A stretch of 46,068 nt of DNA from Anaerolineaceae bacterium (GTDB lineage: Bacteria > Chloroflexota > Anaerolineae > Anaerolineales > Anaerolineaceae): assembly GCA_002702705.1 (NCBI GenBank), contig PABH01000003.1, positions 1-46,068 of the forward strand. The letters run 5' to 3'. Below, in pieces: positions 8,228-44,366 of this stretch. Position 1 is the stretch's first letter. Each line of letters opens with the position of its first letter. The notes beneath the pieces were generated by a model. That model was not told where the DNA came from. It made no database searches and saw nothing but the letters and a program-made list of their open reading frames with translations. The translations under genes and the position numbers were made by a program.

Positions 8228-9949
8228 TTAATTTGCAAAATCCCATTCCCAAATATTATAGAATGGTGTCACACCAGAAAATTTCACACCGGTGAGATTG
8301 GAGTTAACTACCCATAAATCAGGGTCTGAATAGATGCCGTACCAGAGCACATTATCGTGCATATACTTGGTGATTTCATGGAAGATAGCCTGGCGTGCGG
8401 CAGGATCTGTTTCGACCAGTTGTGCCTGGAATAAAGCGTCTAACGCTTCATCACATCCGTAGTAGTTATATCCATAGGGGTTTTCTTCACTGGGTAACTG
8501 GTCACATAACCAATAATCCGTATCCGGATCCGGGAAGTAAGTGCTGTCTGACCATTCCATGATATCTTGTTCACCAATTGCCGGTGGCGCGCCATCAGCA
8601 TAACCACCGAAAAAGATATCAGAATCCTGACTTTCAATCGCCAGATCAATACCGATTTCCCTCAATTGTTGTTGAGCAACAGCTTGAATATCCTGACGGA
8701 TTTCACGAATGGTCGTTCCGTGAACCAGGACTAGTGGATTTCCATCTAAATCTTCACGAATTCCATCTCCGTCACTATCGACATAACCAGCATTTTCCAG
8801 TTTGGTTTTTGCCGCTTCTGGATTATATTCCCACGGAACGATATCGGGAGAAACATAGGCACCACCTGCAATCGGGTCCCAGAGTGTTTCTATAGGGTGG
8901 GTTAAACCTAGCAGTAAGTCATCCGAAATCGCTTGGCGATCCAATGCCATGGCAATCGCCTGGCGAACTTCCACATCTCGAATAGCTGGGCTTGCCATTT
9001 CACGGAAGTTTATAAACCAACCTTCTGCATAGCCACTGTCTACAGTAAAGACGGTTAGTCCTGCATCCTGGAATGTGGGTACGTCTGATGCTGGGATGAA
9101 AGTACCCAGATCAGCATCACCGGCTAAAAGAGCGGCGGTTTGAGCCGCATCATCTGGTACAAATTGTAGGAAAACATCATCAATTTTAGCGATGCCTTTC
9201 CAGTAATTTTCATTTTTTGTGAACCGCATATAACTACCAGATTCCCACTCATCCAAAACATAAGGACCACAGCCGACAGTCGGATTCATGTTCCAATCTG
9301 CACCCATCATTGAACCTTCTGCATCATAAACGGGTTGTAAGATGTGTTTGGGTAAAATACCGCGCCAAAAATTGGCTTCCCATGCTGCAAAAGGTTCTGG
9401 GAAATTCATCACGACGGTACGCTCATCTGGTGCTTCCACAGAGGTTAATGCGTCATATGGATATTTTGAATTAACAGAGTTGGCGTCATCCATCAGCATA
9501 TCGTAAGTGAATTTAAAATCAGCTGAAGTGAGCGGTGTACCATCAGACCAAACGATATCGTCACGTAGGGTAAGGGTGATTGTTAAACCATCATCAGAAA
9601 TTCCCCCATTTTCTACACTCGGAATTTCTTCAACCAGATTAGGATAAGCAATATTTTGATCATCATATTCCCATGCCCAACACAGGTAAAGCTGTTGTAA
9701 GGTTGCCGAAAACCACATATTGGTATAAAAAGGATGTAAGGAATCTGGTTCCTGAGTCCAGGCAAAGGTCACAACCTTTGGTTCCATTGCTTCTTCCATT
9801 GGCGTTTCGGCAGCGGGTTCTTCCATCGGTTGCTCTGCGGAAGGTTGTTCAGCGGCGGGTTCTGGAGTTGCTGCTGGGCTACAGGAAGTCATTACCATCG
9901 AAAATACAATCAGTATTGTCATCAGCGTAAGCCATAACTTTATCTTCAT
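8228..9949 (-). CDS. Peptide ABC transporter substrate-binding lipoprotein (SBP_bac_5 family)
   Basis: 573 aa extracytoplasmic solute receptor. A signal sequence ends in lipobox VMTSC (Cys23), then a low-complexity Pro/Glu/Ala linker (about 24-56) that tethers the domain. The family 5 fold starts at VTFAWTQEPDSLHPFYT and continues with VWSDGTPLTSADFKFTYDM, GCGPYVLDEWESG and VRQAIAMALDR. A DSDGDGIREDLDG stretch in the second half resembles a calcium-binding loop. AGGAGG precedes the ATG at 9949. It is the first transporter gene, 121 nt downstream of the mttB-like gene. Ligand unknown: peptides are the default, but family members also bind nickel, opines or betaine-like solutes. Confidence 0.93.
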   Translation of the reverse strand: MKIKLWLTLMTILIVFSMVMTSCSPAATPEPAAEQPSAEQPMEEPAAETPMEEAMEPKVVTFAWTQEPDSLHPFYTNMWFSATLQQLYLCWAWEYDDQNIAYPNLVEEIPSVENGGISDDGLTITLTLRDDIVWSDGTPLTSADFKFTYDMLMDDANSVNSKYPYDALTSVEAPDERTVVMNFPEPFAAWEANFWRGILPKHILQPVYDAEGSMMGADWNMNPTVGCGPYVLDEWESGSYMRFTKNENYWKGIAKIDDVFLQFVPDDAAQTAALLAGDADLGTFIPASDVPTFQDAGLTVFTVDSGYAEGWFINFREMASPAIRDVEVRQAIAMALDRQAISDDLLLGLTHPIETLWDPIAGGAYVSPDIVPWEYNPEAAKTKLENAGYVDSDGDGIREDLDGNPLVLVHGTTIREIRQDIQAVAQQQLREIGIDLAIESQDSDIFFGGYADGAPPAIGEQDIMEWSDSTYFPDPDTDYWLCDQLPSEENPYGYNYYGCDEALDALFQAQLVETDPAARQAIFHEITKYMHDNVLWYGIYSDPDLWVVNSNLTGVKFSGVTPFYNIWEWDFAN

Positions 9950-12476: not shown

Positions 12477-13160
12477 TTAATGATTTTGAGAAATCGTCCT
12501 CAATTCATCACGATTGGTAATGCGAAATTCGGTGCGGGTAATCTCCAATACACCATCATTGGCAAAACGGTGCAAAAATCGGCACACCATCTCTCTGGTA
12601 GATCCGATTCGGGCGGCCATTTCATCCAGCGTTAATGATCGGGTGATGGTTTCTGATTGGTTTTCTTGATGTGATTCCAATAGGAATTTAGCCAGGCGGC
12701 TCCCCACTGGCTGGAAAGTCATCTCTTCCAAAATTTCACTGGCGCGTGTCATTTTGGTGATCATTAATCGCGTTAATTCCCATGAAAATTCCCCTGATTC
12801 TTTTAAAATATCTAATACACTTTCGCGAGACCATAAATAAGTTTCGGAACCCTGACAGGCTTCAAGCGTGACAGGCATCGGCATATTTTCATAAAAAAAA
12901 GCCAAGCCCCAAAAAATATCTCCGGGATAAAAAGTGGTGACAACCAAACTTCTGCCTGCGGCAGATTCTTTCACCGCTTGAATGCTGCCGCTGCCAATCA
13001 CAAATAAGTATGGCCACAAATCACCATAAAAACTTAAAATCTGTCCTTTTTTATATCTTTTGGGTATGGCTGCCTGTTTAAAAATGGCTCGTTTTTCTTT
13101 GGGAATCTTGTTTAGGATTTGATTATGGGTGAATAAATATGTAAGTGTTTCCATAACCAT
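12477..13160 (-). CDS. Crp/Fnr-family transcriptional regulator
   Basis: 227 aa. Residues about 20-135 form the cyclic-nucleotide-binding-like sensor fold (KGQILSFYGDLWPYLFVIGSGSI, PGDIF), then the long dimer helix, then a Crp-type HTH (LTLDEMAARIGSTREMVCRFLHRFANDGVLEI). The recognition helix has the Glu-x-x-x-Arg pair (REMVCR) that reads TGA cores in CRP, FNR and DNR sites. The N-terminal cysteine cluster of FNR is absent, so a bound [4Fe-4S] is unlikely; DNR-like heme/NO sensing or another ligand is possible. ATG at 13160, with a second ATG two codons later; neither has a clear ribosome binding site. The gene diverges from the 13335-19826 cluster, whose main operon carries a TTGAC-N4-GTCAA box, making it the best local candidate regulator. 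Confidence 0.88.
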   Translation of the reverse strand: MVMETLTYLFTHNQILNKIPKEKRAIFKQAAIPKRYKKGQILSFYGDLWPYLFVIGSGSIQAVKESAAGRSLVVTTFYPGDIFWGLAFFYENMPMPVTLEACQGSETYLWSRESVLDILKESGEFSWELTRLMITKMTRASEILEEMTFQPVGSRLAKFLLESHQENQSETITRSLTLDEMAARIGSTREMVCRFLHRFANDGVLEITRTEFRITNRDELRTISQNH

Positions 13161-13334: not shown

Positions 13335-13745
13335 ATGAACTCAAAATATATTTTGATCCTTCTAATGTGTATGGTTGGGTTAACTGCCTGCCAACCCGCT
13401 GAGCCAATTTGTATAAAGGATTCCATTCGATATGTGGATTCGGTGCAGCAGTTACCCCCGCTTACAGCGCCCCCAGCCGATTCTGAGAAATCTCAGATAC
13501 CGATTGAAATCAAGGGAAAAACGATCTTATTTGACGATGTGATTTCCGGTCCCCTATGTAATAACCATCTCAGCGGAAAAGTCTACATCACCTGTGATCT
13601 GGACATTGTAGCTTCGAAAGTGGCTCCTAATTTTTTGGATGGTTGCGATTTTGAGGTGGAACCTGGCAGCGAAGTGGTTGTGGCATCTCATAATAATGCC
13701 GTTTATTACAAAGGTTGTGATTCTTGTCATAAATCCAGTCAGTAA
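13335..13745 (+). CDS. Small lipoprotein with a C-terminal heme-binding CxxCH motif
   Basis: 136 aa, family not recognised. The signal peptide ends in lipobox GLTAC (Cys19), so the protein should be anchored to the outer face of the membrane. The mature chain is about 117 aa, beta-rich in appearance, with cysteines at 26, 75, 87 and 104 and a CDSCH motif at 128-132, only four residues from the C-terminus. No methionine follows, so an axial ligand other than His132 would have to come from elsewhere. If heme is attached it would be a monoheme c-type lipoprotein; otherwise the cysteines may bind another metal. It is the first plus-strand gene after the Crp/Fnr regulator, 85 nt before an 8-TM protein gene, with a weak terminator between. 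It may be an electron-transfer partner of the downstream heme protein (inference). Confidence 0.75.
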   Translation: MNSKYILILLMCMVGLTACQPAEPICIKDSIRYVDSVQQLPPLTAPPADSEKSQIPIEIKGKTILFDDVISGPLCNNHLSGKVYITCDLDIVASKVAPNFLDGCDFEVEPGSEVVVASHNNAVYYKGCDSCHKSSQ

Positions 13746-13830: not shown

Positions 13831-14610
13831 ATGGAGAAAAAGAATCTGTGGGGTGGAATTTTTGCGAGCGTCGCTGCGTTGATAGGGCTGATTGGCCACT
13901 TTGTTTTGTTTTTTCAATGGTATGTAGCGGGTATGTCTGCTGAGTCGGCAGAGCCGGGTTGTGAAATATTATTAAAATTCCTCCATCCCGGTTTGGCAAA
14001 TGTGGGTATTTTAGCCGCTGTTTTTTTTGCAGTCAGTGCGTATGGGTTTTTCACAAGCAAAAGCTGGGCTTTGTTATTATCCACGATTGGCATCGTCCTG
14101 GCTTTACTGGCAAGCTGGTTCATCAATGTGCCCTTTATGGCCGCAGGTTTACCACCCATTTATTTCACTTTATTCGTCCCCTATCTCTTGTTTTATTTCC
14201 TGATGTTAAAGTGGATTGGCGGTGTATCCTGGGCGAGAGTCTTATTAGCTTTAGGAAGCGGCATGGCGTATATCTTTTGTTTTATGAATGGGGTTTCCAG
14301 CACCAGCCGGATTGTAACGGTAGGGGCACCCCTCTTTGTCCTGGTCGTTGGGTTACATTGGTTTGCTATGATCGGTTGGGCTGTATTCACTGTTGGGGTT
14401 GTTATTAAACCGAAATCTTGGTTAATTCCCTTGGGATTAGTTTCCGGCATGATTGAATTATTTGTCGGATTCCCGCTGGCTTTTGAGACAGGGCTGCAGT
14501 TAGGACGATTTTCCCTATTTTCACTTGCGCCGATTTCCTGTTTGATACTAGTTGTTTTATTGATATGGCCGAATATATTTCAGCGTCTGACGTGTCTTGC
14601 AAAAAAATAA
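13831..14610 (+). CDS. Polytopic membrane protein of unknown function (8 TM)
   Basis: 259 aa, not recognised. About eight hydrophobic helices (roughly 8-30, 55-73, 80-98, 108-127, 137-153, 163-190, 198-220, 230-248). Histidines in or next to the membrane occur at 23, 52 and 176 (GHF, LHPG, GLHWF), which could serve as heme or metal ligands, but this is speculation. The ATG at 13831 is preceded by AAAGGATCTTAAG. It lies between the CxxCH lipoprotein and the heme-copper-oxidase-like gene, all on the plus strand, with a 38-bp palindrome separating it from the latter. The location suggests a role in the same membrane complex or its assembly. Confidence 0.75.
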   Translation: MEKKNLWGGIFASVAALIGLIGHFVLFFQWYVAGMSAESAEPGCEILLKFLHPGLANVGILAAVFFAVSAYGFFTSKSWALLLSTIGIVLALLASWFINVPFMAAGLPPIYFTLFVPYLLFYFLMLKWIGGVSWARVLLALGSGMAYIFCFMNGVSSTSRIVTVGAPLFVLVVGLHWFAMIGWAVFTVGVVIKPKSWLIPLGLVSGMIELFVGFPLAFETGLQLGRFSLFSLAPISCLILVVLLIWPNIFQRLTCLAKK

Positions 14611-14770: not shown

Positions 14771-16255
14771 ATGCAGACTCTTTTAAATCGGTTTAATTAT
14801 CTTTTTCGCTCAACCAAAGGGCTGATTCTGGTCGGGATCGCTATGACCGCTTTAGTATCAGCCTTATTCGGTATGTTATCCGGGCCAATGGCAGATTGGG
14901 GCGTAAAGGATGTAATTGTGAAATTGTTTGGCATGAAATTGGTGGAGGCTGAACGGGAAGGTCGTTTGATCATCCTTTATCACAGCATCGCTATGATTGT
15001 CGTCGCGATTGAAACCTATATGATTACTGATTTATTACCTATGCGGAAAAACCATCAAGTCACAATTAACAGCACGATAACAATTGGGTATCTGGCAGTA
15101 GTGTTTGGCGGCTTGCCGTTTGCTTATTGGGGACACAGCTGGCCTTTCCATGGTTTGTATATCGCTGGTTTGTCATTGATCTTTTTTTCTGGTTGTTATT
15201 TGGTGTATGCCCTGTGGCCCTGGCGAAAAGAATTCCACATTACGGATAAAGCCTATGCTCACACCCGGCGTGGGGTTAACTTGGAAAGGGTAGCTTTCTT
15301 TACGATGGCGGTTGCCACCCTGGCTTCCGCTTTGTTCGGGGCAGTACCCGGTTCATTTTACGGTAATGGTTTTGAAACCTTTCTGGCGGAGAATGTGGTG
15401 CGCGAGCCCCACAAGTCCACATTGGATCTTTCGATTATCGGTCATTTACACATCATGCTGGCCCTGATCGCGATTGCTGCAACTCTCATCATCTGCCGAT
15501 ATATGGATTTTAAAGGCATCTGGCACAAACTCGCCATGCCTTTTATGATCTTTGGTTCGCTGGTACTGGCGATGGGTACCTGGCTGGTTGTTCCGTTTGA
15601 GAGCATGGCGCACATGATCATCTATGGTGGTTCAACGATTGCCATGTTAGGTGCGTTATTTTTGGTGATCTATTCCTGGCGTAAATTAATTCGAGAAGGT
15701 TTGGCAGAAAAGGGTATCAAAAAGGGAAATTTTTTTCAGGCAATCGCTGCTTTGTTAAGAGATCCAATCAAGTTTGGCGTAACCTGGCAAATGGTATTTA
15801 TGAATTTTGTTGTCAGCGGCGTTGGTATTTTTGTAGCCGTAAAATTGGATGAAATTTTTCGGGTGTGGCAGTTTATGGATGAACGCTCCATCCTGACCGG
15901 CCACTGGCATATTCTGGCTACCCTGACGGCCACCATTCTGCTCTTGTATTACGCCGATCTGGCCGGATTAAAAGGCAAAGTCCGCCAGTGGTTTGGCTGG
16001 TTGCTGATCATATTTTCCGATTTGGCGTTTGGGGCGGTCACAGTCTATGAAATGCGCCGCCTGATTGTGGAGGAAGCCAGCCAACAGCCTTTAATTAATC
16101 TGACAACGCTGCTGGGTGATATTGGTCTGGGTGTCGTTTTGTTAGTATTGGCAGCTTTAATGATGTGGCGCTTGATTGACCTCTTTAAAAAGAAAGGGCG
16201 CTGGACAAAAGAAGAATCGGAACGACTTGATCCTTCGATGGAGGTGGAACCATGA
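14771..16255 (+). CDS. Twelve-TM heme-copper-oxidase subunit I-like protein lacking the canonical Cu-B ligands
   Basis: 494 aa from the ATG at 14771, supported by GGAGG 7 nt upstream. Twelve TM helices. The chain shows three 4-helix units: ALVSALFG (27-34) recurs as TLASALFG (183-190), and His71 lies 41 residues after the shared Ser just as His227 does in the second unit. Membrane histidines are at 71 (helix II, YHSIAM), 225 and 227 (helix VI, GHLHIM), 281 (start of VIII) and 378 and 380 (helix X, GHWHIL). Pseudo-threefold symmetry with heme ligands on helices II, VI and X and an HxH on X is the plan of heme-copper oxidase and NO reductase subunit I. The HPEVY motif of helix VI and the HH pair of helix VII are absent, so Cu-B as known cannot form. 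The operon includes heme O synthase. Possible roles: divergent NO or O2 reductase, or a diheme quinol-linked cytochrome b. The gene overlaps the next by 4 nt. Confidence 0.7.
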   Translation: MQTLLNRFNYLFRSTKGLILVGIAMTALVSALFGMLSGPMADWGVKDVIVKLFGMKLVEAEREGRLIILYHSIAMIVVAIETYMITDLLPMRKNHQVTINSTITIGYLAVVFGGLPFAYWGHSWPFHGLYIAGLSLIFFSGCYLVYALWPWRKEFHITDKAYAHTRRGVNLERVAFFTMAVATLASALFGAVPGSFYGNGFETFLAENVVREPHKSTLDLSIIGHLHIMLALIAIAATLIICRYMDFKGIWHKLAMPFMIFGSLVLAMGTWLVVPFESMAHMIIYGGSTIAMLGALFLVIYSWRKLIREGLAEKGIKKGNFFQAIAALLRDPIKFGVTWQMVFMNFVVSGVGIFVAVKLDEIFRVWQFMDERSILTGHWHILATLTATILLLYYADLAGLKGKVRQWFGWLLIIFSDLAFGAVTVYEMRRLIVEEASQQPLINLTTLLGDIGLGVVLLVLAALMMWRLIDLFKKKGRWTKEESERLDPSMEVEP

Positions 16256-17148
16256 AACACAGATTCTTGTTAATTATGATGGTATCCGTTTTTCTGATTG
16301 GCTCATGCCAACCGGTAGATTTAAATGCTCCCGCCCCTGTGTTTGATACAGGTTTTAATGAACAATCCTGGGCTTTTATTCCAGCTGGTAGTTTTGTAGA
16401 AGGCCAGTTTAATCATCCCGCCCAGATTGATTATGATTACGAAATGATGGTAACCGATGTAACCAACCAGCAATATGCGGATTATTTAAATGTAGCGTTG
16501 GCAGATGGTACCATCAAACAAGCAGGTAACCAGATTGTTGGGTATTATGCTGGTGATGAATTTAACGAAGGCCGTCACGAAGAACAAATACTGGAAGGTG
16601 ATTATCTCCATATTCCCCTGGATAACCCCGCGCTCCGTTTGCAAATGGAAAATAATCAGTTTGCAGCGAAAAGTGATTGGGCCAACCATCCCATGACAAT
16701 GGTATCCTGGTTTGGGGCTCAATCCTATTGCAAATATTATGGCTGGCGTTTGCCCACCGAATTGGAATGGGAAAAAGCGGCCCGCGGACTGGATGATCGA
16801 CCCTTCCCCTGGGGACATGAATTGGAAAGGAATAACGCCAATTTTACTTCCAGCCGTGATCCGTTTGAAGATATGTCTTCTTTTGGTTCGCGTACTTCTC
16901 CGGTTGGTTTTTATAATGGAAACACCTACGCCGGGTATCAAACCATCGATTCACCCAGCCCGTATGGTTTATATGATATGGCTGGCAATGTCTGGCAGTG
17001 GACAGCGGATATTTATGACCAGCAGCACTATCGTTACATGCGCGGCGGCAGTAAGGATATTTACCCTGGCAATCTCAGAATATGGGCCAGGAACAATGCC
17101 ACCCCTACCTTTGTAAGCCCTGCGGTTGGGTTTCGGTGTGTCCGATGA
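16252..17148 (+). CDS. Formylglycine-generating-enzyme-fold (SUMF) lipoprotein
   Basis: 298 aa. Lipobox IGSC (Cys19) predicts an extracytoplasmic lipoprotein. Residues about 40-298 form an FGE-sulfatase/SUMF domain: FIPAGSF, MMVTDVTNQQYADYLN, HPMTMVSWFGAQSYCKYYGWRLPTELEWEKAARG (147-179), YDMAGNVWQWTADIY (241-255), MRGGS (263-267) and C-terminal VGFRCVR. Only Cys160 and Cys296 remain in the mature part, without the paired active-site cysteines of true formylglycine generators, so a structural, binding or different oxidative role is likelier. The ATG overlaps the preceding stop (ATGA), and its own stop overlaps ctaB, so it is translationally coupled inside the heme-protein operon and probably works on or in the same complex. 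Confidence 0.85.
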   Translation: MKHRFLLIMMVSVFLIGSCQPVDLNAPAPVFDTGFNEQSWAFIPAGSFVEGQFNHPAQIDYDYEMMVTDVTNQQYADYLNVALADGTIKQAGNQIVGYYAGDEFNEGRHEEQILEGDYLHIPLDNPALRLQMENNQFAAKSDWANHPMTMVSWFGAQSYCKYYGWRLPTELEWEKAARGLDDRPFPWGHELERNNANFTSSRDPFEDMSSFGSRTSPVGFYNGNTYAGYQTIDSPSPYGLYDMAGNVWQWTADIYDQQHYRYMRGGSKDIYPGNLRIWARNNATPTFVSPAVGFRCVR

Positions 17149-18026
17149 AAATTTCAACAATAATTGTCGTCTCCTCTAAAATTAAAACCAAATTGCGAAT
17201 CTATTGGCAGTTGATCAAAAGCCTACAAACGGGTTTGCTGCTCATCACGGGGTTGGCAGGTTATCTCAGTGCGAAATGCCCGGTGCGTGATATTCCCCTC
17301 CTTTTATCCGTATCTAGCAGTTTGTTTTTGGCCATCAGTGGCAGCACTGTCTTGAATATGTGGTATGACCGCGACATCGATAAAAAGATGGATCGTACTT
17401 GTTACCGTCCATTGGCATCCGGTCAGATTTCTCAGCAGGAAGGCGTTTGTTTAGGCTTAGTCCTTTCAATAGTTGGCATTGGATGGGCAGCCAGCACGAA
17501 TTTGTTGTTTGGACTGGTTGTAACTGCTGGTTTGTTTTTCGATGTGGTCATTTACACCATTTGGCTCAAACGCCGCACAAGCTGGTCGATCGTATGGGGT
17601 GGCTTTGCAGGGGCGATGCCCGTATTGGCCGGCAGAGTGTTAGCGATTGGTTTTTTTGATTGGGTCGGGGTGGTGTTGGCATTGGGTGTTTTATTTTGGA
17701 TTCCAACCCACATTATGACTTTTAACATCAAATATTTTGAAGATTACAATAAAGCTGGAATTCCCACTTTCCCTGCACGGTACGGGTTTCAATTTACGCG
17801 ACAGGCGATCGCAATTTCCAGTATTCTAGCTGCGTTAATGATGGCTGCTGCGGGGTATGGAATTGGTTTATTGTGGGGCTACATGCGGCTCCTGGCCGTA
17901 CTTTCTGCTGGTTTATTGCTGTTGGCAGGGGTAAGTGTTTTTCGCCCTTCCGAAACGGTCAATTTTGGTTTGTTTAAATACGCGTCCATCTACATGCTGG
18001 GTTCGATGATACTGATGACTATTTAA
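17145..18026 (+). CDS. ctaB: Protoheme IX farnesyltransferase (heme O synthase)
   Basis: 293 aa from the ATG at 17145, which overlaps the upstream stop codon (ATGA); a longer frame reading back into that gene is rejected. UbiA-superfamily prenyltransferase with about nine TM helices. First Asp-rich motif NMWYDRDIDKKMDRT followed by CYRPL (71-90), the form N-x3-D-x3-D-x4-RT-x2-RP typical of CtaB/CyoE; second motif near YFEDYNKAGIPTFPARYG; WIPTHIMTFNIKY corresponds to the WxPHFW region. The enzyme converts heme B to heme O in the cytoplasmic membrane, used only by heme-copper-type oxidases. No ctaA or Cox subunits are nearby, so its partner here should be the 12-TM heme-binding candidate two genes upstream. 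Menaquinone or other UbiA functions are less likely given the motifs. Confidence 0.85.
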   Translation: MKISTIIVVSSKIKTKLRIYWQLIKSLQTGLLLITGLAGYLSAKCPVRDIPLLLSVSSSLFLAISGSTVLNMWYDRDIDKKMDRTCYRPLASGQISQQEGVCLGLVLSIVGIGWAASTNLLFGLVVTAGLFFDVVIYTIWLKRRTSWSIVWGGFAGAMPVLAGRVLAIGFFDWVGVVLALGVLFWIPTHIMTFNIKYFEDYNKAGIPTFPARYGFQFTRQAIAISSILAALMMAAAGYGIGLLWGYMRLLAVLSAGLLLLAGVSVFRPSETVNFGLFKYASIYMLGSMILMTI

Positions 18027-18035
18027 CAGGTGTGC

Positions 18036-18641
18036 ATGAAAAAAATTAGCCTGGTAAACCGGTTCCTTTTACTTCTAATGGTTTTACTGGCAGCCTATGA
18101 AGTGGTTACCAGTGGTTCAGATATTTTTCCGTGGGTAACCTGGTCCTTTACGGTTGGTTTTGGGGTATTAGTGATCGCCGGATTGCTGCTGATAATTCTC
18201 GGTTATCCTGTTTTAAAAAACCGGCTGGTTATTGTTTTATCTACGCTGATTCCACTCTCGTTTTCCTTAGGTTTGGTGGCTCGATTTTTACCGGAATTTC
18301 GTTCAGGTTTTCTGGTTTTTGTTATGGTTGGCTTAGGATTGGTGATTTACACACGTTTTGTTAGAGTCAATCGATTTGCGATCCCTGTGGTGGCAGTCGT
18401 ACATGGTTTGTCCGGTGTTACTTTGTTTCTGTTTCCGTTTTACTTGGTTTTTTCTCGCCTGGTCAATTGGGGCGTAGTATGGATCAGTGTCGGCAGTTTA
18501 TTAATCGGCTCGGGTGGTTTATTGTTAACGTTTTTAAAAACTGACACACCGCTTCTTTCGGAAGATACTATTTTAACCATCTTTCCAACTGTACTCTTGT
18601 TAACGACAATTTCTTTTGCCTTAAGCATGGTGGTAATTTAA
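18036..18641 (+). CDS. Membrane protein of unknown function in the heme-protein operon
   Basis: 201 aa from the ATG at 18036, with AACAGG upstream; a GTG two codons earlier is possible. About six TM helices, short loops, no recognised domain. A conserved-looking stretch VVHGLSGVTLFLFPFYLVF contains the only membrane histidine. It starts 9 nt after ctaB and ends 4 nt before the next gene. No function can be assigned from sequence; co-transcription suggests a subunit or assembly factor. Confidence 0.72.
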   Translation: MKKISLVNRFLLLLMVLLAAYEVVTSGSDIFPWVTWSFTVGFGVLVIAGLLLIILGYPVLKNRLVIVLSTLIPLSFSLGLVARFLPEFRSGFLVFVMVGLGLVIYTRFVRVNRFAIPVVAVVHGLSGVTLFLFPFYLVFSRLVNWGVVWISVGSLLIGSGGLLLTFLKTDTPLLSEDTILTIFPTVLLLTTISFALSMVVI

Positions 18642-18645
18642 TCAA

Positions 18646-19113
18646 ATGAAGATTCTTAAAGTCTTAAAACCTAACGTGAACAAAATTTGGTTGATTGTTT
18701 TGGCGGGGCTGATGTGGTCCGGCGTTGGTATATTATTAAACCGGTTTGCTTCCCAATGGCTGGGATTGGAGGAGATAAAAAACCAATTCTTTATTGTGTT
18801 TTTGGGGTTTATCCTGGCTGTGTTAATTTACCGTTTTGGCTTTTCAAAGGTCGCTCGGAAAAATATCTGTCGTATTAACAATTATTTATCCGAAAGAGTT
18901 TGTTTATTTGCCTTTCAGCAGTGGAGCAGTTACCCATTGGTAGTTTTTATGATTGGGTTGGGTGTGGTTTTACGGGTTTATTCACCGATACCGAAACCTT
19001 GGTTGGCGGTTTTGTATATTGGGATTGGCGGGGCATTATTTCTTTCCAGTTTTCATTATCATTTTGTCTTGTTTAACCGGATTTTTCGACACCAGAAAAA
19101 TCCGGTTACTTAA
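18646..19113 (+). CDS. Four-TM membrane protein of unknown function
   Basis: 155 aa, basic N-terminus, TM helices around 13-31, 47-65, 92-110 and 119-138. Notable segments: GLMWSGVGILLNRFA, SPIPKPWLAVLYIGIGGALFLSSFHYH. A similar pattern seems familiar from uncharacterised small membrane proteins of anaerobes, but I cannot name a family. The ribosome binding site is weak, and translation is probably coupled to the preceding gene 4 nt away. Confidence 0.68.
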   Translation: MKILKVLKPNVNKIWLIVLAGLMWSGVGILLNRFASQWLGLEEIKNQFFIVFLGFILAVLIYRFGFSKVARKNICRINNYLSERVCLFAFQQWSSYPLVVFMIGLGVVLRVYSPIPKPWLAVLYIGIGGALFLSSFHYHFVLFNRIFRHQKNPVT

Positions 19114-19136: not shown

Positions 19137-19826
19137 ATGTCAAAAGCTAAGTGGTGGGTCAAAGTACTTAATATTATTGGAATCGTGTTGATGGGGTTAA
19201 CGGCTGTGGCGACCGTCATGGCCGGAATCGGAACAACCTGTGTTGCTCTGGCTGCTGAAAATTACAGCAGTAAAATGGCATTGATTGCCCCCTATAAATG
19301 GGTGTATGTGTTGTTTGTGTTGATTACAACAGCCGTGGGCGTGATGGGTGTTCGGGCAACAATCATGTTAATCAAACGAAAACCCGGCGCTTATTCGTTT
19401 TCTCTGATTACCTTAATGGCAGGCATCGTGATCAATGTGATTCACGTTGTGGTTTCGCGTGCCATCCGCGGTAGTTCCATGCCAACGGATGGAATCGTAT
19501 ATATTACGGTGTTTACCTTGATCATATTTTTCATTTTCCGCATTCCTGGCATTTGGAAGGAGTATTCCCGCCAGGAAACGGATCACGAGGACGATGGCCG
19601 ATTGGCTGCTGCTTTTACATTGGTTGCCTGTGGTGTTTCCGTTTTAATTGCACCTGAATGGTTCGCCGTATCCCATACTTTCGAACCCGGTGGATTTAAT
19701 TGGGCAAATGCCTGGCCGCTGCAAATGAGTTTAACGGGAATTCTGCTGGTACTGGGTGGACTCTCACTCGCGGTACTACCTTACCTACGGACTCAACAAC
19801 CCAAACCGTTTACGATCAAAAGATAA
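19137..19826 (+). CDS. Six-TM membrane protein of unknown function, last gene of the heme-protein operon
   Basis: 229 aa with AGGAGG before the ATG. TM helices at about 10-35, 53-75, 84-106, 116-135, 155-177 and 190-212. Cytoplasmic loop around residues 140-152 is charged (EYSRQETDHEDDGR). Histidines near membrane ends (INVIHVV, VSHTF) could be ligands but nothing diagnostic is visible. Followed by a strong bidirectional terminator, so this is the end of the operon that begins with the 12-TM protein. Confidence 0.7.
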   Translation: MSKAKWWVKVLNIIGIVLMGLTAVATVMAGIGTTCVALAAENYSSKMALIAPYKWVYVLFVLITTAVGVMGVRATIMLIKRKPGAYSFSLITLMAGIVINVIHVVVSRAIRGSSMPTDGIVYITVFTLIIFFIFRIPGIWKEYSRQETDHEDDGRLAAAFTLVACGVSVLIAPEWFAVSHTFEPGGFNWANAWPLQMSLTGILLVLGGLSLAVLPYLRTQQPKPFTIKR

Positions 19827-33641: not shown

Positions 33642-34712
33642 ATGGCTGAAAAATCTTTTCAGAAGCGTATTTTTACGTGTATATTTATTATTTGTTTTTG
33701 CGGATTAATGTTGGGTGGTATCACAGTCAGTGTTCAGGCACAAGGCATTCCGGAAAACGAAACCTGTTTAGCGTGTCATGATCAACCCGATTGGGAATGG
33801 AAACTAGCCAATGGGGATATTTTAAATCTATCGGTTAGCGGACAGGTCTTTGATCAATCTGTACATCAGAATATGCAGTGTATAGAATGCCATATCGGGT
33901 ATGAAGATTTCCCTGCCCCACATAACCAGATCACAGCTACCAACAAACGCCAGTATATGGTGAGTTATCATGACACTTGCCAGAAATGTCACAGTGAACA
34001 ATTTAATCAAGTTTCTGGAAACGTCCATGAGGAACTTTATCAATCGGGCAACCTGAATACACCAATTTGTGCCGATTGTCACCAACCTCACAGCCAACTT
34101 CACATGAGTGAAATTGATCAACCGAGAGAAAGCGGTCAAATCAGCTGGAAATCACAAATGTGTGCTGACTGCCATGAAAAAGATTTTGAAAATTATACTG
34201 ATAGTGTACATGGAGCAGGTTTACTGGAAGGAAACGATGACATGCCGGAATGTGTGGATTGCCATCACGTTCACCAAATCTGTGATCCCGGTCAAAATAA
34301 CTTCCGTAAAGAATCAGTAGATACTTGTGCCAAGTGCCATACCAATAATGACATCATGGCAAAATACGGATTGGAAACCAATGTGTTGGATACGTACATG
34401 GTTTTCCATGATACGACTGTCACCTTAACTGAAGATTATGACCCCGACTCATTAACCAACAAACCTACTTGTTATGATTGCCACGGCATCCATGAAGTTG
34501 GAAATATAACCCCACCACCCATTGAGGCAAATATTTCCGCTTTGACACTCTATCCCGAAGTGGAAGTGAAAAAAGCCGGTCCTCCTGTTCAAAATGTGGG
34601 CGTCACTGGTGTAGTCGTGGGTTTGATTCTTGGAATCGTGGGTACCCTGACAATCAAAGCTCTGATTATTGAGAAACGAGAAGAAATTAACAGTGAGGGA
34701 ACAAAATCATGA
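33642..34712 (+). CDS. Octaheme c-type cytochrome with C-terminal membrane anchor
   Basis: 356 aa. Signal peptide about 1-33 (cleavage after VQA), then eight CxxCH heme sites starting at Cys42, 80, 113, 143, 174, 204, 229 and 277, with many extra histidines (for example His150, His190, His209 and His211) able to give bis-His ligation, and a TM near 321-343 that anchors it with a short cytoplasmic tail. Periplasmic or outer-face electron transfer is expected. The last hemes sit far apart while the first six are evenly spaced, as in NrfB/NapC-like multiheme cytochromes; no Lys-type (CxxCK) heme of NrfA or other catalytic mark is visible. Its stop overlaps the following iron-sulfur gene (ATGA). 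Confidence 0.92.
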   Translation: MAEKSFQKRIFTCIFIICFCGLMLGGITVSVQAQGIPENETCLACHDQPDWEWKLANGDILNLSVSGQVFDQSVHQNMQCIECHIGYEDFPAPHNQITATNKRQYMVSYHDTCQKCHSEQFNQVSGNVHEELYQSGNLNTPICADCHQPHSQLHMSEIDQPRESGQISWKSQMCADCHEKDFENYTDSVHGAGLLEGNDDMPECVDCHHVHQICDPGQNNFRKESVDTCAKCHTNNDIMAKYGLETNVLDTYMVFHDTTVTLTEDYDPDSLTNKPTCYDCHGIHEVGNITPPPIEANISALTLYPEVEVKKAGPPVQNVGVTGVVVGLILGIVGTLTIKALIIEKREEINSEGTKS

Positions 34713-35563
34713 CGATGGATCGCAGAGATTTTCTTAAAACAACGGGTATGGGATTATCCAGCTTAATGGTCATCCCTGGTATCAAATCGAAATCCAGTTC
34801 TGGAAACAACGAAGACAGCTTTGGCATTTTGTATGATGCCACCGCCTGCATTGGCTGTCGCGAATGTGAAAATGCATGCAAAGACCGCCGCGGATTAACC
34901 CCGCAAGGCGAAGCAGACCTGAATGCCGATACCTGGACAATTGTAAAACTTTACCAAAATCAAGAAGAAAACTCGGACTATTCCTTTATTAAACGAAATT
35001 GTATGCACTGTGTAGATCCGGCTTGTGTATCAGCCTGCCCGGTAGGCGCAATGCAAAAAACAGCAGAAGGTCCGGTTATTTATGACGAAACCATCTGCAT
35101 CGGCTGCCGATACTGCATGGCCGCCTGTCCTTTTGATGTTCCAAAATATGAGTGGGATGAAGTTTTCCCACGCGTACAAAAATGTGATTTCTGTGCAGAT
35201 CGCCTGCGAGATGGTGAAATTCCAGCCTGCGTGGCTGCCTGTAAAGTAGGAGCCATAAAATTTGGCAAACGTTCGGATTTACTAGCCGAAGCACACCAAC
35301 GTATTCAAGACAACCCGGAACGATATATTAATTATGTCTATGGCGAAAAAGAAGTCGGCGGCACCTCGGTTATGTATATCTCCAAAGTACCTTTCGAGAA
35401 GCTCGGTTTACCTGTTCTTTCCAGCAGCTCCCTGCCTTCATTAACCTGGCCTTGGATGAAAGCTGTACCTGGTGTAGCGGTTGTGGTTGCCAGTCTGATG
35501 ACATTTTTATACTGGATTACTGGCCGTAAAATGAAAATCGAATCAGTAAAAGTGGAGGAATAA
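34709..35563 (+). CDS. Tat-exported ferredoxin-type subunit with four [4Fe-4S] motifs (HybA/NrfC-like)
   Basis: 284 aa. Tat signal DRRDFLKTTG (4-13). Sixteen cysteines form four binding sets: 47/50/53/57, 98/101/106/110, 130/133/136/140 and 159/162/174/178, the DmsB/NrfC/HybA pattern. A C-terminal TM (about 243-265) anchors it to the membrane as in HybA. It would conduct electrons between the multiheme cytochrome and the NrfD-like quinone subunit on the outer face of the membrane. Start at 34709 overlaps the cytochrome stop; a second in-frame ATG two codons on is possible. Confidence 0.9.
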   Translation: MTMDRRDFLKTTGMGLSSLMVIPGIKSKSSSGNNEDSFGILYDATACIGCRECENACKDRRGLTPQGEADLNADTWTIVKLYQNQEENSDYSFIKRNCMHCVDPACVSACPVGAMQKTAEGPVIYDETICIGCRYCMAACPFDVPKYEWDEVFPRVQKCDFCADRLRDGEIPACVAACKVGAIKFGKRSDLLAEAHQRIQDNPERYINYVYGEKEVGGTSVMYISKVPFEKLGLPVLSSSSLPSLTWPWMKAVPGVAVVVASLMTFLYWITGRKMKIESVKVEE

Positions 35564-35564
35564 G

Positions 35565-36758
35565 ATGGCAACGACATTACCCAAAAAGAACACCCAACCA
35601 ATAGGGGCTGGCACCATCGGCATGGCCTTTTTTGCACTGCTCGGTCTGATTCTGGTAGTCTATCGCTGGACGGTTGGCCTGGGTGCTACCACAGCTCTCA
35701 CCGATGCACGCGGTTGGGGAATCTGGATCAGCTTTGATGTATTATGCGGTATCGCTCTGGCAGCTGGTGCATTCAGCATCGCTGGTATCGTCTATGTGCT
35801 TCATTTGAAAGAATTCTATCCAATCTTGCGTCCCACCGTGTTAACCGGCTTTTTAGGTTATGCCCTTGCAGCCTTTGCCATTATGGTAGACCTCGGTTTC
35901 CCGCAGCGAATTTATTATATGATCTTTAATTGGAATGTGCACTCGCCGCTATTTGAAGTTGGCTGGTGTGTCATGATTTATGCCACCGTGTTAGCACTTG
36001 AAATCTCACCAATTGTATTTGAGCGTTTTAACATGAAAGCACCCTTAAAGATCATCCGATCCATCACCATTCCGCTTGTTATTCTGGGTATCGTACTCTC
36101 AACCATGCACCAAAGTTCATTGGGCACACTATTTGTCCTTATGCCGCATCGTGTTCACCCGCTTTGGTATTCTGGCATCTTGCCAATATTGTTTTTTGTC
36201 TCAGCCATTGCAGCAGGTTTAGGCATGGTAATTGTGGAATCTACGCTGACTGGTTTTGGCTTAAACCACAAAACCGACACCAAATTGCTGGGTAAAGTTG
36301 CCAAAATTATCCCCTTTGTGTTGGGTCTTTATCTCGTCCTCAAATTGGGTGATCTGTTCATCTCTGGGGATGGTGCTTATATATTCTCTTCCGGTAATCT
36401 CAGCTTCCTATTTTGGGCAGAAGTGTTAATTAACATCATCATCCCGATGGTATTGTTGTCCATCCCGAGTGTACGTCGAAAACCAATGCAGATGTTTGCC
36501 GCAGCACTGTTAGTGGTTGTTGGATTATTAATGAACCGTTTCAACATCAGTCTGGTAGCTTTTTCCGCTGGAGCCTACATGCCCAGTTGGCTGGAACTAT
36601 TTGTCACAATCGGCATGATTGCTATTGGGGCACTGGTCTTCACCCTGGCAGCACGATATTTGGCCGTTTTCAGCCACACCACGGAAGAAAAAACAAAATC
36701 ATCTATTTCAGATGGTTCATTAAAGGAAGCAGTATCATCTAATCCGAGTAATAAATGA
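35565..36758 (+). CDS. NrfD/HybB-type polytopic quinone-interacting membrane subunit
   Basis: 397 aa, about ten TM helices, HybB-like: YRWTVGLGATTALTDARGWGIWISFDVLCGIALAAGAFS near the N-terminus and VEIGWCVM-like EVGWCVMIYATVLALEISP. No heme is expected; the family exchanges electrons with menaquinone. It starts 1 nt after the iron-sulfur gene and overlaps the following regulator gene (ATGA). Together the three genes make a cytochrome/FeS/NrfD module as in Hyb, Nrf, Hmc or Qrc complexes, but no molybdopterin, hydrogenase or nitrite-reductase catalytic subunit is present. Confidence 0.88.
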   Translation: MATTLPKKNTQPIGAGTIGMAFFALLGLILVVYRWTVGLGATTALTDARGWGIWISFDVLCGIALAAGAFSIAGIVYVLHLKEFYPILRPTVLTGFLGYALAAFAIMVDLGFPQRIYYMIFNWNVHSPLFEVGWCVMIYATVLALEISPIVFERFNMKAPLKIIRSITIPLVILGIVLSTMHQSSLGTLFVLMPHRVHPLWYSGILPILFFVSAIAAGLGMVIVESTLTGFGLNHKTDTKLLGKVAKIIPFVLGLYLVLKLGDLFISGDGAYIFSSGNLSFLFWAEVLINIIIPMVLLSIPSVRRKPMQMFAAALLVVVGLLMNRFNISLVAFSAGAYMPSWLELFVTIGMIAIGALVFTLAARYLAVFSHTTEEKTKSSISDGSLKEAVSSNPSNK

Positions 36759-43319: not shown

Positions 43320-44366
43320 CTATCCTGGCTCGGTATGTGTATGCCGGTGATGTAAATCCGGTAAGTGCGGATGGTTATGGTGAAATGTTTTGTGTTCATG
43401 AAAATGAGTATGTCGAATTTTCAAGGGTAACCCCGTATGATGGTGAAAATGATGACCATCATCATGGCTGTGAACATGTTCATGCTGCAGATCGGAATGG
43501 ATATGATTATGATTGTGATTTTCTTTGAATAATAATAAAAATACAAGGACTAACAAAAAAGCACCTGCTAATTGTGCGAACGTGATTTTTTCACCCAAAA
43601 AGATAGCGGCTAAAAACACACCAAAAAATGGTGCGCTGGAGAAGAACATTTGACTGCGTGTTGCACCTAAATTTTGTGCTGAAAGGATATATAAGACGAT
43701 ACTAAAACCATAAGAAAAAACACCAATAAATATACTACCAGCCAATTGAAATCCATTCGCAATCCATGGCGCGAGGAGTAACCCGATGGTCAAATTGACT
43801 GTTCCTGCTACAACTCCTTTCCAAAATGTGCTTTGTGCTGGGGTGATCTCATCAATTAACGCTGTAAAATGATTATCCAAACCCCAACAAGTTGTTGCCA
43901 AAGCGATTAACAAGCCAGCCTTTACTCCAGCAATCCCCTCCCCCCAGGCTAAGATCACAGCTGCAAGAATCGTACCTGCTACAGCCAACCAGCCATTTTT
44001 TGTCAGGTAATCCTTAAATAAGATATGCCCCAATACTGCAGTGGTAACTGTTTCAAGCGTTAACCACATAGAAACCGAAGCAGCCGATGCGAGTTTTAGA
44101 CCAGCTAATAAAAACAATGGCCCAAACACACCACCGAAAATAATGGCACCAACCAGATAAATACGGCTTTTTCCTACCATTTTCCAGGGCAAAAGAAACT
44201 TATTTTCTTTAATGAGGATACCACTCACCCCCATTGCAGCCCCCAAATATAATAACCCTGCCAATTGAAAAGTGGAAAACACATTCATTAATGGTTTACT
44301 TAAAGGTGATGCTGCTCCAAACAAGATTGCAGAAAATATTGCTAATAAGTAAAAATACCGCTTCAT
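43320..44366 (-). CDS. EamA/DMT-family transporter with a histidine-rich C-terminal tail
   Basis: 348 aa. Ten TM helices in two EamA repeats (1-140 and 150-282). The C-terminal 65 residues (284-348) contain 25 histidines in H-x-H runs, which is typical of Ni/Co/Zn handling proteins and unlike most DMT members. It probably exports or imports metal or a metal complex, or uses the tail to sense metal (inference). AGGAG precedes the ATG at 44366. It diverges from the iron-sulfur protein gene and is followed by the cupin gene. Confidence 0.85.
   Translation of the reverse strand: MKRYFYLLAIFSAILFGAASPLSKPLMNVFSTFQLAGLLYLGAAMGVSGILIKENKFLLPWKMVGKSRIYLVGAIIFGGVFGPLFLLAGLKLASAASVSMWLTLETVTTAVLGHILFKDYLTKNGWLAVAGTILAAVILAWGEGIAGVKAGLLIALATTCWGLDNHFTALIDEITPAQSTFWKGVVAGTVNLTIGLLLAPWIANGFQLAGSIFIGVFSYGFSIVLYILSAQNLGATRSQMFFSSAPFFGVFLAAIFLGEKITFAQLAGAFLLVLVFLLLFKENHNHNHIHSDLQHEHVHSHDDGHHFHHHTGLPLKIRHTHFHEHKTFHHNHPHLPDLHHRHTHTEPG

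Follow-up and report, generated by a model that had tools for sequence, protein, structure and literature searches.

Heme-copper oxidases (HCOs) and nitric oxide (NO) reductases, the enzymes that reduce oxygen and NO in respiration, are counted in genomes largely by sequence profiles. Their subunit I has 12 helices in three four-helix units, with a His on helix II and HxH on helix X for the two hemes and a second-metal site formed by one His on helix VI and an HH pair on helix VII. In oxygen reductases, a Tyr is cross-linked to a CuB histidine. Departures from this metal site are known, as Asp is the active-site residue of gNOR-type NO reductases (PMC8756737). Here we describe a conserved, unnamed membrane protein family that matches none of the profiles we tried, but is predicted to share the subunit I fold while its likely metal-binding histidines are arranged differently. 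The genetic neighbors in some lineages point to a role in handling NO, and the family may be an overlooked branch of this superfamily. In the open literature searched, we found no paper whose title or abstract start describes it (papers consulted: PMC8756737, PMC11388526, PMC5320621 and PMC1274295), although we cannot say that it is unpublished.

The gene lies in a 46,068-nucleotide stretch of Anaerolineaceae bacterium DNA (contig PABH01000003.1 of assembly GCA_002702705.1; hereafter, the window), where it encodes a 494-residue protein whose ATG is preceded by GGAGG, a good ribosome-binding site. The gene is single-copy in this genome. An earlier note, made from the sequence alone, had described a repeat (ALVSALFG starting at residue 27 and TLASALFG at 183), equivalent histidines 41 residues after the shared serine (S30 to His71 and S186 to His227), HxH pairs at 225/227 and 378/380, and the absence of a helix VII HH pair and of the HPEVY motif. 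All these features were confirmed. The features of the locus are listed below.

Table. Features of the window (position 1 is its first letter). Family numbers are our own labels; "by eye" marks features recognized by inspection.
Position	Strand	Feature	Support
12477..13160	-	Crp/Fnr-type regulator, divergent from the operon	PF13545, PF00027; family in 43 loci
13335..13745	+	small lipoprotein-like protein with CDSCH (CxxCH) near its C-terminus	
13831..14610	+	hydrophobic protein (by eye), family 6, upstream	
14771..16255	+	predicted HCO-fold 12-helix membrane protein, 494 aa	
14981..14983	+	codon of invariant His71 (helix II)	
15149..15151	+	codon of invariant His127 (start of helix IV)	
15443..15451	+	codons of His225-Leu226-His227 (helix VI HxH)	
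15611..15613	+	codon of invariant His281 (start of helix VIII)	
15902..15910	+	codons of His378-Trp379-His380 (helix X HxH)	
16252..17148	+	SUMF1/FGE-like protein with lipobox-like start, directly downstream	PF03781, E 4e-39
17082..18026	+	heme O synthase (CtaB/CyoE); the true start may lie later, as the frame overlaps the gene before it	TIGR01473, 225.2 bits over cut-off 210.3
18030..18641	+	hydrophobic protein (by eye), family 3	one invariant His (H125, 71 of 71)
18646..19113	+	hydrophobic protein (by eye), family 10	
19137..19826	+	hydrophobic protein (by eye), family 5	
33642-36758		multiheme cytochrome c, HmcB/HybA-like iron-sulfur protein and HmcC/NrfD-like membrane protein in a row	
43320-44366		permease-like protein with a very His-rich C-terminal tail (by eye)	

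To determine how widespread the family is, we searched other genomes. Relatives were present in 17 of 400 genomes of the phylum and, with a profile, in 55 of 298 genomes of the class, but in only 2 of 247 in the phylum of a Desulfuromonadaceae member. A pattern scan of genome contigs found 286 relatives, of which the best 80 were kept, including records titled Aminicenantes, Neomarinimicrobiota, KSB1, Ignavibacteria and Desulfuromonadaceae at about 60% identity. One scan of viral contigs found no relative. In a FastTree of 106 rows, in which some genomes appear twice and two records titled Bacillota and Symbiobacterium were not included, 12 sequences from outside Chloroflexota, one of them from a record titled only "bacterium", formed one clade with support 0.989, as expected of a transferable, selected function.

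We next asked which residues are conserved. In 107 aligned rows, 99 of them distinct after removing rows 98% or more identical, seven of the 13 histidines (71, 127, 225, 227, 281, 378 and 380) were invariant down to about 32% identity, while the other six varied. The only departures were gaps in two fragments (loci L015 and L191; L and G numbers are our labels for loci and genomes) and an E127 in fragment L191. This conservation, calculated without weighting rows for relatedness, held in a distant clade at 31-44% BLAST identity. His127 was not among the histidines listed in the earlier note. Other near-invariant residues include R65, Y70, R173, E207, R211, D331, E371, W379 and W410.

Sequence comparisons did not link the family to known proteins. 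Pfam and NCBIfam returned only insignificant matches, no PF00115 match at E <= 1 was found for 17 members, and neither a single sequence (phmmer) nor a profile (hmmsearch) found a credible relative in the PDB. Comparison by hhalign of family alignments of 75, 89 and 107 rows with 50 COX1-type proteins, in sets of 31, 15, 4 and 25, gave nothing significant. Two of these proteins, whose longest frame was not the COX1 frame (L135 in the sets of 15 and 25, L138 in the set of 4), stayed in these inputs and in the alignment of ligand columns described below, and we drew nothing from them.

In contrast, structure prediction supported the subunit I fold. Two template-free AlphaFold2 models, made with 17 and 88 sequences (pLDDT 79.0 and 84.6; pTM 0.84 and 0.89), gave 12 long helices, which in the second model span residues 15-37, 59-88, 93-119, 124-147, 171-195, 217-244, 250-271, 277-313, 332-357, 367-398, 402-427 and 435-472. 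In both models, His281 starts helix VIII, not helix VII. The best Foldseek matches in the PDB were ba3, cbb3, aa3 and NOR chains, most with probability 0.9 or more and with TMq between about 0.34 and 0.62, while unrelated helical proteins in the list had TMq of 0.30 or less. The E-values were modest, with one match below 1e-3 with the first model and none with the second. VIA-align 2, a second look at the Foldseek candidates, listed only HCO/NOR enzymes in its 50 entries (Z 20.1-23.6), with aa3 and ba3 at about 21. Thus, we are confident in the predicted fold, but less so in common descent, which rests on the predicted fold alone since no sequence homology to COX1 was detectable.

The closest match was cbb3 oxidase subunit I, CcoN (8smr_E; Z 23.6, rmsd 4.0 over 400 residues). 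Like CcoN, our protein has a His on helix II and HxH on helix X, although its helix II His seems, on weak evidence, to sit at a different repeat position. However, identity is 9%, there is no HH on helix VII and no Tyr four residues after a helix VI His, helix VI carries HxH, and Pfam recognized no CcoO or CcoP in the window's operon. The NO reductases cNOR and qNOR (NorB; 4xyd_A, Z 20.9, and 3o0r_B, Z 20.3) have the fold predicted for our protein and possibly, by gene context, the same substrate, but our protein lacks the HH pair and a helix VI of the HLWVEG kind (seen in L144/L145), and no NorC was recognized in the window's operon. We also considered a distant relationship to NnrS, apparently a membrane heme protein of NO stress, similar in kind and context. 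This is very unlikely, as no PF05940 match was found in the 17 members scanned and no NnrS match over the cut-off in 30 genomes that each hold the protein (one match, in G694, was below it).

To compare the arrangement of the histidines with that in known enzymes, we aligned the family's own repeat units by hhalign. His225/His227 aligned with His378/His380 (E 1.5e-7 for this one pair, probability 94%, 57 columns), and, weakly, His71 with His227 and His127 with His281 (E 0.0054, probability 7%, 129 columns). A mostly basic residue 21 places after His71, His227 and His380 agrees with this register (positions 92, 248 and 401; K or R in 82, 91 and 95 of 107 rows). The same test on the set of 25 canonical COX1-type proteins aligned the helix II His with the first His of helix X (E 5.4e-14) and the helix VI CuB-His with the second (E 6.6e-5), and the set of 15 agreed for both pairs (E 4.5e-12 and 7e-4). 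Some results did not fit: in the set of 31 A-family proteins, the helix II His fell on the second His of helix X at an insignificant E of 0.08, and helix II against VI was off by one residue in the set of 15. In this register, canonical enzymes have histidines at II(-2), VI(0) and X(-2,0) plus HH on VII, while this family has II(0, weakly), VI(-2,0) and X(-2,0), no HH, and histidines opening helices IV and VIII. Position 69, the equivalent of the canonical helix II ligand in this register, is Leu or Val in all 106 rows with a residue. Direct alignments to canonical helices were insignificant and disagreed by two residues, and thus did not fix the absolute register.

The earlier note had suggested that the protein may be a deep branch of the superfamily with a different second metal, or a bis-heme cytochrome. 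Both the predicted fold and the invariance of the histidines support its interpretation, although our data do not decide between the two. The note should be corrected in that the relationship is not detectable by sequence and in that the helix II His seems, on weak evidence, to sit at a different repeat position from the canonical one, so that heme ligation may not be the textbook one. A deep branch in which all three repeat units carry a conserved histidine in register would make the question of how the two-site enzyme arose from a threefold ancestor directly testable. We set aside a reading in which His225 and His227 bind one ion, since residues i and i+2 of a helix should point to opposite sides.

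A bis-heme electron-transfer cytochrome (quinol to periplasmic acceptor) without a catalytic metal, with the SUMF1-like protein or the CxxCH lipoprotein as partner, is possible, since two HxH pairs plus His71 suffice for two bis-His hemes and multiheme c genes lie in the flanks of L206 (same family in L028 and L089) and L062. We consider it doubtful, as heme O appears to be used only in HCOs and His127 and His281 would be left without a role. A further, rather unlikely reading is that the cofactor sites are rotated by a third of a turn, or that a third site exists. Read strictly, the register would have His227 and His378 ligate a heme in pore B, while His71 and His225 (with His127) would form a second site in pore A, which appears to be empty in oxidases of known structure. 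The protein would then be an HCO-fold enzyme using a pore that its known relatives do not appear to use.

To obtain evidence on the cofactor, we examined the operon. The gene was called in 75 of 81 loci (window included); in the other six, an overlapping frame or another start was chosen, and these were left out of the counts. The SUMF1-like gene was next in 67 of the 75 loci and ctaB was second in 60, although contig ends cut some. In three distant-clade loci (L188-L190), ctaB was directly downstream without the SUMF1-like gene. Of 55 genomes with the protein, 10 had no COX1 match, and the five of these with known completeness are 93-99% complete. None of the 10 had a CtaA match, but this absence is not specific, as two genomes that have COX1 (G192 and G713) also lack it. 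In six of the eight COX1-less genomes whose flanks we looked at, ctaB was beside the gene, while in the other two it was not seen. Since heme O appears to be made for HCOs, this argues that the protein carries heme O, which we consider probable, although this is inferred as no method used here shows a cofactor.

The small lipoprotein-like protein has seven conserved Cys and a C-terminal CxxCH or CxCH-like motif (12 of 12 keep the Cys and His columns; CxxCH strictly in 6 of 12), and is a possible monoheme or metal electron carrier. Apart from this small CxxCH protein family, found in 11 loci, no cytochrome c or CuA subunit was recognized in the window's operon. The conserved His of the family 3 hydrophobic protein is its only fully conserved polar residue, and relatives often lie on both sides of the oxidase-like gene.

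In some lineages, the gene sits near NO or nitrite genes. In a KSB1 locus (L066), nrfH, nrfA, Crp/Fnr, ferredoxin, cupin and YgbA (PF11756) genes lie upstream, with a Rrf2-like tblastn hit at 8420-8812. This resembles the HcpR regulons of Desulfuromonas and Geobacter, which include nrfHA and a ferredoxin-type protein (PMC1274295), and YgbA belongs to the NO-responsive NsrR regulon of E. coli (PMC5320621). Rrf2 and YgbA genes occur in L055, and L057 has a Rrf2-like gene directly upstream and a DUF438-hemerythrin-PAS gene downstream. In G144 (L200), nrfHA is about 3 kb away. Of 16 distant-clade loci, which come from a few families, 7 have DUF438-hemerythrin and 4 a gNOR-like COX1, and in L196 a flavodiiron-like gene is directly beside the gene. 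Full-length NrfA (E < 1e-60) occurred in 18 of 25 positive and 8 of 22 negative genomes (Fisher p 0.02), although these were hand-picked and not corrected for kinship.

Other observations speak against this link. Most Anaerolineae loci show only the core operon, with no recognized nitrogen gene. The window's own genome has no full-length NrfA, and in its operon Pfam finds no nitrogen gene, only a generic Crp/Fnr regulator. By tblastn, nrfA was near the gene in 1 of 98 loci, plus L200, which was added later because nrfA had been seen on its contig. NosZ was found in 1 of 15 genomes, and none of five HcpR/DNR/FNR-type patterns occurs in 13 regulator-operon spacers.

A model that we favor, but only tentatively, is that the protein is a catalytic-type subunit with the predicted HCO subunit I fold, carrying hemes, one or more of them heme O made by the neighboring CtaB, held by histidines on helices II, VI and X. 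In this model, the usual three-histidine copper site is replaced by a site built from a histidine of helix VI and those that open helices VIII and IV, as proposed without measured ligand distances. The protein may take electrons from the quinol pool or periplasmic cytochromes and reduce NO to N2O, for detoxification or respiration in anaerobes. Heme binding, the second metal, the substrate and the electron donor are all inferred.

An oxygen reductase or O2-scavenging oxidase of anaerobes with the same fold and a rewired site is a less likely alternative. The predicted fold and the heme O synthase would fit, flavodiiron and hemerythrin neighbors also fit O2 handling, and 45 of the 55 positive genomes also carry COX1. 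However, there is no HH pair and no Tyr four residues after either helix VI His (229 is M in 107 of 107 rows; 231 is A or T in 103 of 107), although a Tyr from helix VII, as seems to occur in cbb3, was not tested. In addition, the YgbA, nrfHA and gNOR-like neighbors favor NO, and 10 of 55 hosts have no COX1 match.

The gNOR-like neighbors raise the possibility that the protein is a non-catalytic NO/O2 sensor or an accessory subunit of another oxidase. The gNOR-like subunit I gene lies beside ours in L183, L186, L187 and L195, in L186 (4635-6689) with a CoxB-like gene (NCBIfam match below its cut-off), and a DUF438-hemerythrin-PAS gene is present in three of the four loci. The L186 protein has Asp in the columns of both the CuB histidine and the cross-link Tyr, and the others are relatives at 83-86% identity. 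Although it too departs from the canonical metal site, the L186 protein is COX1 by Pfam (E 3.8e-63) and keeps HH and the canonical helix X, while ours is not recognized by Pfam. An accessory or sensory role is unlikely, as no other oxidase is recognized in the window's operon and 10 of 55 genomes have no COX1 match.

The alignment of ligand columns also revealed three COX1-profile matches (L136, L137 and L139, on G099:C16, G021:C7 and G008:C1; E 4e-13 to 1e-23) in which the aligned ligand columns of helices II, VI, VII and X hold no histidine. These are possibly heme-free COX1 paralogues in Chloroflexota. Elsewhere in the window, the multiheme cytochrome c and its two neighbors lie between two response-regulator-like genes and form a quinone-linked electron-transfer module.
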